From: Candidatus Cloacimonadota bacterium
Lineage (GTDB): Bacteria > Cloacimonadota > Cloacimonadia > Cloacimonadales > TCS61
Direction of reading: 5' to 3'
NCBI GenBank assembly: GCA_016935235.1
Contig: JAFGRJ010000172.1
Coordinates: 1-32,480 of the forward strand
DNA: 32,480 nt
Position 1 is the stretch's first letter. Each line of letters begins with the position of its first letter. The notes under the pieces were generated by a model. It did no database searches. It saw only the letters and a list, made by a program, of their open reading frames with translations, and was not told the DNA's origin. Shown here piece after piece: positions 1,526 through 7,028 of this stretch. The position numbers and the translations under genes are program-made.

Positions 1526-1556
1526 TTGACACATATCATTTCTTTGGAACTAGATA
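1526..1556 (+). promoter_or_regulatory. Candidate sigma70-like promoter for the lipoprotein operon
   Basis: TTGACA at 1526-1531 matches a consensus -35. A possible -10, TAGATA at 1551-1556, follows at 19 nt, which is longer than ideal. It is placed 27 nt before the LpoB-like start codon and after the candidate terminator, so it makes sense as the head of the three-gene unit. The -35 match is seen directly; function is inferred. Confidence 0.4.
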
Positions 1557-1582
1557 AAAAATAATTAGTAATGGAGGTTTTA

Positions 1583-2194
1583 ATGAGAAAAGTATTAACT
1601 TGTATTACCTTATTTTTAATAATACTGCTTCTGATGGCAGGATGCGGACCCGGGACCAGGAAAGTGGAACGCATCTCTACTGACGAGGTTACCGATTTAA
1701 GCGGAAGGTGGAACGATACCGATTCCAAACTTGTGGCTGAACAGATGATCAGGGACTTGCTGTACAGACCATGGCTGGATGATTTCGTAATGAAAAACAG
1801 CAGCAAACCCGTAGTCATTGTTGGTACCATTCGCAACCTCAGTTCGGAGCATATCCAGACCGATGTTTTTATCAAGGATATCGAGCGGGAATTGATCAAT
1901 AGCGGCAAAGTAAAATTTGTGGCTACCACCGCGGAAAGGAATGAGATCAGAACCGAACGTGATGATCAGCAATCCTATTCCTCGGAAGAGACTGCTAAAT
2001 CACTGGCTCAGGAAACCGGAGCGGACTTTATGCTCAAGGGAACCATAAATTCCAATACTGATGCCATCGAAGGTAAATCAGTCGTTTTCTATCAGGTTGA
2101 CCTGGAATTGATGAATATAGAATCAAACGAAAAAGTCTGGATTGGCAGCAAGGAAATCAAAAAATTTATTACCAAGGCAAAGACAAAATGGTAA
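1583..2194 (+). CDS. LpoB-like lipoprotein, putative penicillin-binding protein activator
   Basis: A 203-residue protein with a lipoprotein signal peptide (lipobox LMAGC, Cys21) and a following domain like the LpoB/DUF4857-type periplasmic activators: KPVVIVGTIRNLSSEHI, FIKDIERELINSGKVKFV and ADFMLKGTI are typical family segments. In enterobacteria LpoB spans the periplasm from the outer membrane and stimulates the bifunctional peptidoglycan synthase PBP1B. An in-frame ATG at 1571 was rejected because a GGAGG ribosome site lies at 1573-1577, exactly spaced for the ATG at 1583. The gene overlaps the next lipoprotein gene by 7 nt, so the two are probably coupled. The target synthase is not in the window, so its partner is inferred only. 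Confidence 0.8.
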   Translation: MRKVLTCITLFLIILLLMAGCGPGTRKVERISTDEVTDLSGRWNDTDSKLVAEQMIRDLLYRPWLDDFVMKNSSKPVVIVGTIRNLSSEHIQTDVFIKDIERELINSGKVKFVATTAERNEIRTERDDQQSYSSEETAKSLAQETGADFMLKGTINSNTDAIEGKSVVFYQVDLELMNIESNEKVWIGSKEIKKFITKAKTKW

Positions 2195-3576
2195 AAAAGC
2201 TCATCCCCATTTTTGTTGTTGTCTTCCTGCTTGGGTGCGCTGCTACCAGAACATCACTGAAACAATACAGTGGACTGGATGAAAAAATTTCTGCCCGGGA
2301 TTTCAGCGGTGCAATTGCTAAGATAGAGAAAGCAAAGGATAAATATTATACTGCCAAGGACAAAGTGGTTTACTATCTTGATCTTGGCATGCTCTATCAC
2401 TATCAGGGAAACTTCGCAAAAAGCACGGAATTGCTCACCAAGGCAGAGAACGCCATAGACGAGAACTATACCAGGAGCATTTCCAAAGCAGCAGTTTCCA
2501 TGCTTTTGAATGATAACGTTCTCGATTATGCCGGGGAAGATTATGAGGATATTTATCTCAATATCTTCAAAGCTCTTAATTATCTGGAAATGGATAAATT
2601 CGACGATTCTTTCGTTGAAATCAGAAAAATAAACAACAAATTAAATCTGCTGGAGGATAAATATCGCAAGCTGGGAGAAGAATACGAGAAGACCGAGGAC
2701 AACAAGGCTAAATTCAAGCCGGCAGAAAATAAGTTTCACAATGATGCCCTGGCTAGATATCTGAGCATGCTTCTTTACCGTGCTGAGGGCAAACAGGATG
2801 ATGCCCGCATAGACCTGCAGGGTATCAAAAATGCCTGGAAAGATCAGACGCATATCTATAACTTTTCCATGCCGGCTTTGGATAATCATCTGGTTGCATC
2901 TGATAAAGCCAAAGTAAATTTTGTTTGCTATACGGGCAAATCACCGGTAAAGGAAGCGAAAACACTCTATATCCACACCGAAAAAAATATAATCATCGTA
3001 GCTACTACAGAAAGAAAACCCGACGATAAAACCACGGTTGGTTATCTGGGCGGAATCCCCTGGGAAGGTGTTGAAAAGGGTTATCATTTCAAATTTCAGC
3101 TTCCTTTTATCAAGGAACGCGATTCCTGTGTGAACCGGGTGAGTGTCACCGTGGACGATCTACCGGCATACGATCTTGAACTCATCGAAGATGTGGGGGT
3201 GGTCGCTGTGGAAACCTACAAAGTAAAAGAACCCCTGATTTATGTTAAGACCATAGCCAGGACTATTATCAAAGGTCTGTTCGCAGAAAAAAGAAAAGAG
3301 GAAATGGAAAAGAAGATAGAAAATCCGGTGCTGGGCTTTGTAGCCCGGCTTGCCACAGATGCTGCCGTGGATGCCACCGAAAATGCGGACCTGCGCATAT
3401 CAAGATTTTTCCCCGACCGGGCTTATGTTGGCGAACTGGAAATTGCAGCAGGTGTCCATAAAATTACTGTAAATTTCTATTCTGCGAATGGAGGATTGCT
3501 CTTCACAGACCAGATCGATGCTATCGATATAAAAAACGATAAATTAAACCTGATCAGATCTTATTATCTTAATTAA
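2188..3576 (+). CDS. COG3014-like lipoprotein with TPR-like N-terminal half
   Basis: A 462-residue predicted lipoprotein with signal peptide and lipobox FLLGC (Cys17). The first ~230 residues are helical and contain TPR-like units such as LDLGMLYHYQGNFAKSTELL and LYRAEGKQDDARIDL; the second half looks beta-rich, with GGIPWEGVEKGYHFKF and a C-terminal segment ending in LNLIRSYYLN. This resembles the uncharacterised COG3014 family, often found beside LpoB-type genes. The function is unknown; a role as partner of the LpoB-like protein is inferred from 7-nt overlap and shared lipidation. It is 34 nt upstream of the LPP20-like gene and probably in the same transcript. Confidence 0.7.
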   Translation: MVKKLIPIFVVVFLLGCAATRTSLKQYSGLDEKISARDFSGAIAKIEKAKDKYYTAKDKVVYYLDLGMLYHYQGNFAKSTELLTKAENAIDENYTRSISKAAVSMLLNDNVLDYAGEDYEDIYLNIFKALNYLEMDKFDDSFVEIRKINNKLNLLEDKYRKLGEEYEKTEDNKAKFKPAENKFHNDALARYLSMLLYRAEGKQDDARIDLQGIKNAWKDQTHIYNFSMPALDNHLVASDKAKVNFVCYTGKSPVKEAKTLYIHTEKNIIIVATTERKPDDKTTVGYLGGIPWEGVEKGYHFKFQLPFIKERDSCVNRVSVTVDDLPAYDLELIEDVGVVAVETYKVKEPLIYVKTIARTIIKGLFAEKRKEEMEKKIENPVLGFVARLATDAAVDATENADLRISRFFPDRAYVGELEIAAGVHKITVNFYSANGGLLFTDQIDAIDIKNDKLNLIRSYYLN

Positions 3577-3610
3577 ATAAAATGAGATATTTTATCCAGG
3601 AGTATTACCG

Positions 3611-4636
3611 ATGAAAAAAACTCTGTTCTTCATTATGGCAGTTCTGGTCCTGATATCCTGTGCGGTTCAGGCTAAAAGCAAAAAGGATAAGAAGCCCGAC
3701 TGGCTGGAAAATCCCAAATCAGTGTATTCCGAACAACTTTATCTCACAGCTATCGGGGAAGGTGACTCACGGAATGAAGCGGAAAATTATGCAGCCGGTA
3801 ATCTTGCCAAGATCTTTGAAACCAGGGTCCAGACCGATGAGACCTATTCTCAACGTTATCAGGAGCTGATGAAAGGCGGGAAAACCACCTTCGAAGAGGA
3901 GGCAGACGTCCAGAAAATGGTTAACCTGCAGGCAGAACAAACACTTTATAATGTCCAATTTTCAGACAGCTATACCGACCAGTATGGACGCGTTCATGTA
4001 TTGGCTTACCTCAACCGTTTCAAAACCGGTGAACTTTACGAAGAAAAAATAAATACCAATGCAGATAGAATCCTCTTTTTCCTCGATCTGGGAGATGCAG
4101 CCAGCGATCCCCTGATGCGTTATGCTGCCTATAATGCAGCTAAAACCATAAGTTTGAACAATGAGATTTTGCTTTCCCAGTTGGACATCATCTCTCCCGA
4201 TACTAAGGAATTTCTCGATCTTGGCTATAATCACGATGAAATAGTTAAAATGAATGCCATGGCAGCCAAGGAAGTGAAATTCGCCATGAACATCGGCAAT
4301 GATCAGGAAAACAAAATTGGCATACTCATCGAAGATATGTTCACAGATCTGGGCTTTGTCATGTCCAGCGATAACCTGCTGCTCGTGGAGGGGGAGATCA
4401 CCTTTGAACAGACTGATCTCGGCAGGGAAGATGATAATATTTTCGTCCGCTATGATCTGCAGCTCAAGGTTAAGGATCCGGAAGGAATTGTGGTTGCAGC
4501 TCTCACAGAAAAAGGACGGGAAGGGCATAAGACATATCTGGAAGCCAGGGAAAGGGCTGTACGTGCCCTGGAAAAGAAAATCAGGACCAGCTTGAAAGAC
4601 AGGATTATCAGTTACCTGGATAGCCTGGTACTGTAA
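3611..4636 (+). CDS. LPP20-family lipoprotein/exported protein
   Basis: A 341-residue exported protein. The N-terminus (17 residues up to LISC) can be read as a lipobox with Cys17; a signal peptidase I site after AVQA is an alternative. The region PDWLENPKSVYSEQLYLTAIGEGDSRNEAENYA... (about residues 29-65) is the LPP20 domain signature, in which a WxxxP segment leads to an A-rich helix. The C-terminal half has a second repeat-like segment (MFTDLGF...LLVEGEITFEQTD). It has a good GG-rich site (CCAGGAG) ahead of the ATG and ends 26 nt before a strong terminator. LPP20 proteins are surface or periplasmic lipoproteins of unknown biochemical role; here it completes a three-gene envelope unit. Confidence 0.75.
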   Translation: MKKTLFFIMAVLVLISCAVQAKSKKDKKPDWLENPKSVYSEQLYLTAIGEGDSRNEAENYAAGNLAKIFETRVQTDETYSQRYQELMKGGKTTFEEEADVQKMVNLQAEQTLYNVQFSDSYTDQYGRVHVLAYLNRFKTGELYEEKINTNADRILFFLDLGDAASDPLMRYAAYNAAKTISLNNEILLSQLDIISPDTKEFLDLGYNHDEIVKMNAMAAKEVKFAMNIGNDQENKIGILIEDMFTDLGFVMSSDNLLLVEGEITFEQTDLGREDDNIFVRYDLQLKVKDPEGIVVAALTEKGREGHKTYLEARERAVRALEKKIRTSLKDRIISYLDSLVL

Positions 4637-4662
4637 TAAATCCTGAATAATAGCAATTAAGA

Positions 4663-4693
4663 ATGTCACTTCTCGTGGAAGTGGCATTTTTTT
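4663..4693 (+). terminator. Rho-independent terminator of the three-lipoprotein operon
   Basis: A 10-bp stem, ATGTCACTTC (4663-4672) pairing with GAAGTGGCAT (4678-4687) with one G-U pair, a 5-nt TCGTG loop, and a run of seven T's (4687-4693). It lies 26 nt after the LPP20-like stop and only 11 nt before the YjbQ start codon. Confidence 0.9.
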
Positions 4694-6164: not shown

Positions 6165-7028
6165 TTATTCCCTCACAACTAAGAATAATTGAGAAAGTTC
6201 CAGTAGAGATTCGGGATTTATCCGCCTGCCGCACCATTCTATTCCCCAGTGGAGATGGGCACCGGTGGAGCGACCGCTGGAACCAACCTCACCTATCATT
6301 TCACCTACCTCTACCCGCATACCAACTTCAACATTGCATCTGTCCAGGTGATAATAGGATGAAGTAAGACCATGGCCATGATAGATGATGACAAAATTTC
6401 CCTGATAAAAGTATTCCCCGCAGAGCATGACAATACCATCCGCCATGGTTTTCACCGGAGTCCCCCGGGGTGCGGCAATGTCAATACCGTTGTGGGGAGC
6501 AGAGGGTACACCGTTAACTATCCGCTGGGCTCCGAAGCTCCCGGTGATTGTCTGCTGGGGAACAGGGCGAATAAAGAAGTCTGTAAACCGTTCTTCAAGA
6601 AGCAGGGCGTTCTTCTTTGATTCCTGCATTGTCTGTCTTTCCATTTCAATTCTTCTACTGGTTTCAGGATCCTGAACAGATGTACTGAATCTCTCCTCTT
6701 GCAGTGTGATTTGCTCGATTTCGTAATCAGCACAGGTGAGCTCAATTATGCTGGTGAGAATTTTCCCATTCTGCAATACTATTGTCAACCTGTGTTCCAG
6801 GGGTTCATCACGATCGAATCCAAGATAGAATTTATTCTGCGAAATTGCAATCGGTTTATAATCGAGAAATACAGATTCAACTTCCTCACTGACTTCACCT
6901 ACCATCAGGGAACCCTGGCGGGGAATGCCCCGGACCTGTAACAGGCCCCCGGCAAAAAGTGCATTCTGGCAGGGGAAAAGCAGCAGGCAGAAAATAAGAA
7001 TTCTTACTGCTGAGGAAGAAAGAATCAA
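6165..7028 (-). CDS. M23 family metallopeptidase (LytM-type endopeptidase) at the end of the Bat cluster
   Basis: A 287-residue exported protein: signal peptide (about 1-26), a beta-sandwich-like N-domain with the segment KFYLGFDRDEPLEHRL that is shared by many M23 proteins, a short helical linker (about 105-150) and a C-terminal LytM domain. The zinc ligands and catalytic His are all present: H179 and D183 in HNGID, H227 in YYHLD, and H258/H260 in GAHLHWG, so it should be an active peptidoglycan endopeptidase rather than a degenerate activator. The start is TTG, overlapping the batE stop (TTGA), with AAAGGGTG upstream; the next ATG would cut off the signal peptide. Coupling to BatE, which carries an SH3b domain, suggests that it acts with the Bat complex in the periplasm. 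Confidence 0.9.
   Translation of the reverse strand: MILSSSAVRILIFCLLLFPCQNALFAGGLLQVRGIPRQGSLMVGEVSEEVESVFLDYKPIAISQNKFYLGFDRDEPLEHRLTIVLQNGKILTSIIELTCADYEIEQITLQEERFSTSVQDPETSRRIEMERQTMQESKKNALLLEERFTDFFIRPVPQQTITGSFGAQRIVNGVPSAPHNGIDIAAPRGTPVKTMADGIVMLCGEYFYQGNFVIIYHGHGLTSSYYHLDRCNVEVGMRVEVGEMIGEVGSSGRSTGAHLHWGIEWCGRRINPESLLELSQLFLVVRE

Follow-up and report, generated by a model that had tools for sequence, protein, structure and literature searches.

Does a protein of the LpoB family always serve a class A penicillin-binding protein (PBP), as LpoB of enterobacteria does for PBP1B? The question is raised by three adjacent genes, here called A, B, and C (together, the trio), which occupy positions 1583 to 4636 of a 32,480-nucleotide stretch of Candidatus Cloacimonadota DNA (the window; contig JAFGRJ010000172.1 of assembly GCA_016935235.1, which comprises 2.23 Mb and is 93.5% complete). 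A first-pass annotation, made from the letters of the window, had described a module of an LpoB-like, a COG3014-like, and an LPP20-like lipoprotein and had proposed that they form an outer-membrane complex controlling peptidoglycan synthesis. We found that the module is real and well conserved and that the peptidoglycan idea is reasonable. The mechanism that the name LpoB implies fared worse: UB2H, the domain of PBP1B to which LpoB docks, was not found in any PBP of this genome or of 58 relatives, gene A falls under the cut-off of the LpoB equivalog model, and the trio is kept in 21 of 21 Kiritimatiellota-type genomes without any class A PBP.

A conserved unit of three envelope genes

Family searches agreed with the names given to A and C. 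Gene A scored 150.2 bits against PF13036 (LpoB; cut-off, 22.3), with a further weak match to FlgT_M in Pfam, and gene C scored 35.4 bits against PF02169 (LPP20; cut-off, 25.9), for which scores elsewhere were 41.1 bits in Pontiella and 29.6 bits in a spirochaete. Gene B had no Pfam match above cut-off. Matches to PF13036 outside enterobacteria are also visible in public models (Bacteroides). Against TIGR02722, the NCBI equivalog model for LpoB, gene A reached 104.9 bits, just under the cut-off of 110.55, and eight other trio A proteins stayed below it as well, at 75.4 to 109.3 bits (from Cloacimonadota, Kiritimatiellota, a spirochaete endosymbiont, a Spirochaetales metagenome-assembled genome, Ignavibacteriales, Calditrichaeota, and Marinimicrobia), whereas LpoB of E. 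coli and of Aeromonas scored 218. Searches of solved structures with the single sequences of A, B, and C gave nothing useful, nor did profiles of B and C; LpoB was matched weakly by one profile of A (A2; 0.0036) and strongly by another (A4) that includes E. coli LpoB itself. Searches for a defence or phage origin of the trio gave no matches.

Within Cloacimonadota, we searched 59 genomes, that of the window included. A and B were each found in 47 and C in 49, with all three in 42, and in 38 of these 42 the genes lie on one strand in the order A-B-C (in G041, B is split over two contigs). Both adjacencies were present in 39 of the 42, a count that includes G049 with its order B-A...C; one trio gene lies on another contig in G006, G020, and G056. 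Taken pairwise, A and B occur together in 44 genomes, A only in three, B only in three, and neither in nine (Fisher p 3e-6, uncorrected for relatedness).

The linkage extends well beyond this phylum. When named genomes were scanned with a profile of B, 317 relatives were confirmed, and all figures for named loci given here refer to the best 80 of these 317. Among the 80, 69 loci carry A-B-C, seven A-B, and four B-C, and no other order occurred. Nine of the 11 incomplete loci stop at a contig edge, while two (L246 and L256) are truly without C beside B. A-B without an adjoining C is thus found in some Cloacimonadota loci, namely these two and L175, whose genome (G055) gave no match to C in the genome search. 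The best 80 come from Cloacimonadota, Kiritimatiellota and other labels of the Planctomycetes-Verrucomicrobia-Chlamydiae (PVC) group, Spirochaetota, Marinimicrobia/Neomarinimicrobiota, Calditrichaeota, Ignavibacteriales, and a few others, and the A-B-C loci among them span at least four phyla. The linkage on which the first-pass annotation built its proposal is therefore a conserved one, and no description of the three-gene unit was seen among the papers that our literature searches listed.

Clusters of neighbouring genes compared across phyla revealed no further gene family conserved beside the trio. The flanks are lineage-specific: Cloacimonadota have 2-oxoacid oxidoreductase subunits and UPF0047 there, and 11 Kiritimatiellota loci have an upstream gene in common. 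In the 59 of the best 80 loci that have complete A, B, and C, the distances of the three proteins co-vary (r 0.76 to 0.83, as against a permutation maximum of 0.26). The tree of B follows phyla for the most part; PVC rows stand together (support 93/92), and Cloacimonadota and spirochaetes are partly mixed. Two metagenome-assembled genomes labelled Armatimonadota (L203 and L208) carry a trio whose B falls among Cloacimonadota in the tree and whose flanking genes are of Cloacimonadota type; because of this placement and these flanks, the two genomes are probably mislabelled.

As had been annotated, all three open reading frames begin with a signal peptide and a lipobox-like cysteine (MAGC in A, LLGC in B, and LISC in C). 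Among the named relatives and the window, the cysteine column was kept in 76 of 76 A proteins and 80 of 80 B proteins. Because it was kept in only 57 of 65 C proteins, the product of gene C appears not to be a lipoprotein in every relative.

A further occurrence of gene B came from a tblastn search of a plasmid collection, in which one record was matched, a 4.9-Mb sequence of Aeromonas caviae (L270, NZ_AP026896.1). The record is labelled as a plasmid but holds housekeeping loci such as hinT-ycfL-lpoB, and it looks like a chromosome that was misfiled. Its gene order is hinT, a B homologue, the DUF1425 gene ycfL, lpoB, and thiK (hinT being read from the open reading frame and thiK from its place), which is the E. 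coli K-12 locus, hinT-ycfL-lpoB-thiK-nagZ, plus B. The B homologue, which we take to be COG3014, has 473 residues and scored 56.5 bits against the B profile, and the nearby LpoB scored 176.7 bits against PF13036. Thus, a second and distant lineage also has B near A, with a clear LpoB alongside.

Gene A and E. coli LpoB have in common the PF13036 core, the lipobox, and, through the equivalent locus of Aeromonas, a link to gene B. They differ in that gene A is only 18% identical to its counterpart, lies below the TIGR02722 cut-off, has B and C alongside, and is without a UB2H partner. The spacer between the lipobox cysteine and the core also differs, with ~25 residues in gene A by alignment count (22 to 27, median 24, in 76 A proteins) as compared to ~58, Pro-rich, in E. 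coli LpoB. Because the spacer of Aeromonas LpoB is short as well (~23 residues), its length seems to discriminate poorly and is weak evidence on membership in LpoB. According to an excerpt of PMC6220978, E. coli LpoB uses a long disordered stretch to bind UB2H of PBP1B.

The trio with and without class A PBPs

The first-pass annotation had supposed a class A PBP in the same genome and had pointed to a PBP1-type synthase with a UB2H-like domain. The enzyme is there: a single class A PBP is encoded in the window genome, in two pieces on contigs C194 and C42. The UB2H domain (PF14814) is not, with no match above cut-off in this genome or in its 58 relatives. Weak matches in the 59 genomes lay away from the PBP places and were mostly of UvrB or Mfd size (names read from size); in 20 named trio genomes, one weak match was flagged above cut-off, in a 1128-residue frame of Mfd size and outside any PF00912 place. 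In five complete class A PBPs of Cloacimonadota, Transgly and Transpeptidase were the only domains above cut-off. Judged from these searches, the LpoB-UB2H-PBP1B route is not available in the window genome.

The class A PBP of the window genome (end of C194 and start of C42) extends at its C terminus into a long tail that carries the motif DSLVxDLGG, here DSLVFDLGG, as do those of most members of its family and that of L271. In relatives, the tail runs for up to ~335 residues after the KTG motif.

Next, we turn to the genomes in which there is no such enzyme. PF00912, the GT51 domain of class A PBPs, was found in none of the 21 Kiritimatiellota-type or otherwise PVC-labelled genomes with a trio locus, which are all such genomes among the best 80, and in all 17 other named genomes searched. 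Eighteen of these 21 loci are A-B-C, and the remaining three (L226, L244, and L264) are truncated at contig ends. PF00905 was present in all 14 tested of the 21 GT51-less genomes, which thus retain class B PBPs, and in two others. In Pontiella sulfatireligans (L224), the genes for MreB, MreC, a class B PBP (PBP2), and RodA lie together, and FtsI is found with MraY and a Mur ligase; PF01098 (RodA/FtsW) was seen both there and in L310. Where looked at, then, PVC-labelled genomes keep the trio and the SEDS/class B PBP wall machinery without a GT51 enzyme. Absence of class A PBPs in Kiritimatiellota may already be in print, reportedly in work by Spring et al. from 2016.

The trio can be kept without class A PBPs, and because this is so in 21 genomes, the trio cannot act only as LpoB of E. 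coli does. Of the complex proposed by the first-pass annotation, the assembly itself is plausible, while control of peptidoglycan synthesis by way of a class A PBP is not its general function.

Predicted folds and competing explanations

The explanation that we favour, if not quite at an even chance, is that A, B, and C make up one outer-membrane lipoprotein assembly on the peptidoglycan side, which would help to coordinate the growth of outer membrane and cell wall, neither via UB2H nor through a class A PBP alone. A, with its LpoB/PelC/TolB-N-like core, and C, with an LPP20-type part and an LptE/PelC-like domain, would form the core of the assembly, and B would be a tetratricopeptide repeat (TPR) scaffold that holds partners. 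On the wall side, its partner may be either the RodA/class B PBP machinery or the wall as such. LpoB of E. coli would have specialised later, acquiring a partner with UB2H and a long linker while losing B and C.

Several points weigh against this explanation. The outer-membrane location of the proteins we infer from the lipobox alone. The fold of the A core and of the second domain of C is widespread and occurs also in export and in lipopolysaccharide insertion, which leaves a role away from the wall possible. The 21 GT51-less genomes fall essentially into one clade (the B tree contains 16 of them), so the trio without GT51 counts as one evolutionary observation, and its function may have changed in that clade. 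Finally, PF00912 was found in 52 of the 59 Cloacimonadota genomes, and in all 37 of those that are ≥90% complete and ≤5% contaminated; because all of these high-quality relatives have it, a class A PBP role in the lineage of the window may still exist.

Structure prediction provided models of B and C. The model of C (mean predicted local distance difference test score, pLDDT, 87.9) had as its top Foldseek match HP1454 of Helicobacter pylori (4kzs; 5.9e-7). By VIA, the two-domain fold was matched with a Z of 9.8 and a root-mean-square deviation (rmsd) of 5.5 over 223 aligned residues; HP1454 ranks eleventh by VIA Z, yet it gives the longest two-domain overlap at low rmsd. A role of LptE for C was rejected, as its second domain is LptE-like but many other proteins reach a similar Z. 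The model of B (mean pLDDT 89.5) consists of TPR helices up to about residue 220, then a beta domain and a long helical hairpin, and ends in a C-terminal beta element. Compared with the PDB by fold, it gave only generic TPR matches in the N-terminal half, none of them with E ≤0.001. That the beta/helix C-terminal half of this model has no named fold is no evidence of a new one.

The H. pylori genes offer a close parallel to C. Excerpts of published accounts place HP1454, which has an Lpp20-like first domain, in one operon with HP1456/Lpp20 (PMC11756786), put HP1455 and HP1457 on either side of lpp20 (PMC12029599), and name HP1457 as an LpoB homologue (PMC11394524). On these partial accounts, an LPP20 protein and an LpoB homologue lie near each other there as well, and C has the fold of HP1454. 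The two systems differ in sequence: the C profile finds neither HP1454 nor Lpp20 in the PDB set.

The strongest competitor, which we hold to be distinctly less probable than a wall-coordinating assembly, is an outer-membrane ring or an accessory of export or insertion that does not act on the wall directly. On this view, the fold that A has in common with the second domain of C would be that of PelC, CsgG, TraT, and LptE, which include many outer-membrane oligomers, and B would be a TPR partner. Residues 222 to 341 of C did match HpaA, LptE, CsgG, PelC, and TraT by VIA-align (Z ~8 to 10.5), and the A4 profile matched PelC (5t11) at 5.3e-5, so that the likeness to PelC, a dodecameric outer-membrane lipoprotein, covers both the A core and the second domain of C. 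However, this fold is common to many unrelated roles, and in Aeromonas the lpoB locus ties A and B to a clear LpoB. Furthermore, since the trio has no further conserved gene family beside it across phyla, there is no sign of a Pel-type export locus.

It is also conceivable, but unlikely, that in Cloacimonadota A or the whole complex activates the class A PBP through a dock other than UB2H, such as the C-terminal tail described above. The motif was found in 20 of 27 complete PBPs from trio genomes, as compared to two of 10 from genomes with a weak gene A or none. (PBPs were taken from 39 of the 59 genomes; the counts leave out the window genome's own PBP and that of G036, which are cut by contig ends, and the second PBP of G042.) The association is confounded by family membership, however, as seven of the 27 have no motif and two from genomes without a strong gene A do have it, and the trio is kept where class A PBPs are absent. 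Because the motif follows family lines, the tail as a putative docking site is a lead only.

We regard it as very unlikely that the three are merely co-transcribed envelope genes without a common function. Neighbours in an operon need not interact, but here the same three genes recur in the same order across several phyla, between unrelated flanks. Still less probable, and already disfavoured by the searches, is a true LpoB orthologue acting via UB2H as in E. coli: its case consists of the PF13036 score and the homology to Aeromonas LpoB, and against it stand the absence of UB2H and the TIGR02722 scores of the trio A proteins, nine of nine below cut-off. A flagellar accessory of the FlgO/FlgP/FlgT or basal-disk type is the least credible of all and was rejected for the lineage of the window (barring a flagellum without flagellin), since no flagellin was found in the window genome or in the other 34 genomes of its family, and in only 11 of the 59 relatives, even though C matches FlgT (3w1e) by fold, A has its weak FlgT_M match, and an excerpt of PMC12222027 assigns a common SHS2 fold to LPP20, FlgP, and FlgT, the disk and ring proteins of Campylobacter (FlgP) and Vibrio (FlgT) resembling C in having an SHS2-type and a TolB-N-like domain.

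Gene layout and the wider LpoB family

The layout of the locus is given in Table 1. The overlap of A and B noted by the first-pass annotation is 7 nucleotides long, stop codon included, and among the relatives compared, this length was seen only in the window, G001, and G009. The strong terminator could be confirmed as well: none of 200 shuffles was as good as its hairpin, although a simple terminator scan did not list it. As for the promoter, the -35-like hexamer TTGACA is present, but no good -10 element accompanies it, and the promoter scan listed nothing at its position (in the region as a whole it returned five sites, with 8.1 expected by chance), leaving the -35 element of the unit unproven.

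Table 1. Positions of the trio genes and of nearby signals in the window
Feature	Position	Strand	Description
Gene A	1583..2194	+	PF13036 LpoB-family lipoprotein, 203 aa, lipobox Cys21, short Cys-to-core spacer
Gene B	2188..3576	+	TPR-plus-beta lipoprotein (predicted), 462 aa, lipobox Cys17; homologue in Aeromonas caviae between hinT and ycfL-lpoB
Gene C	3611..4636	+	PF02169 LPP20-family protein, 341 aa, Cys17; LPP20/SHS2-like first part and LptE/PelC/CsgG-like domain; HP1454-like overall
GGAGG, ribosome-binding site of gene A	1573..1577	+	Sequence; 5 nt 5' of ATG at 1583
TTGACA, -35-like hexamer	1526..1531	+	Sequence; convincing -10 absent downstream; not in promoter-scan list
Intrinsic terminator hairpin with U-run	4659..4691	+	-16.8 kcal/mol, z -4.84

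On the 5' side of the trio lie two 2-oxoacid oxidoreductase subunits, and on the 3' side a UPF0047 gene followed, on the opposite strand, by genes for an ADH_N-domain protein and an M23 peptidase. The peptidase, a possible cell-wall hydrolase, is encoded at 6165 to 7028 on the minus strand, ~1.5 kb 3' of the trio, and is absent from the conserved neighbour clusters.

In an excerpt of Typas et al. 2010 (PMC3060616), in which a 100-bit cut-off was used, LpoB and its UB2H dock are described as restricted to enterobacteria and recently co-evolved. The wider LpoB family alters this enterobacteria-only picture, as one of its members belongs to a conserved three-gene unit in several phyla. Somewhat more tentatively than the assembly itself, we suggest that the family began not with an enterobacterial activator of PBP1B but as one member of an ancient three-protein outer-membrane complex that needed no class A PBP and maybe served RodA and a class B PBP or the attachment of the outer membrane to the wall; the UB2H partnership of E. 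coli would then be a late recruitment of one surviving subunit. One clade has an LpoB-family protein without the enzyme class that it would activate, which calls for caution with the automatic annotation "penicillin-binding protein activator LpoB". The uncharacterised families B and C now have a partner that can be tested, and what the complex does in the absence of class A PBPs could be learned from a natural experiment, Kiritimatiellota such as Pontiella.

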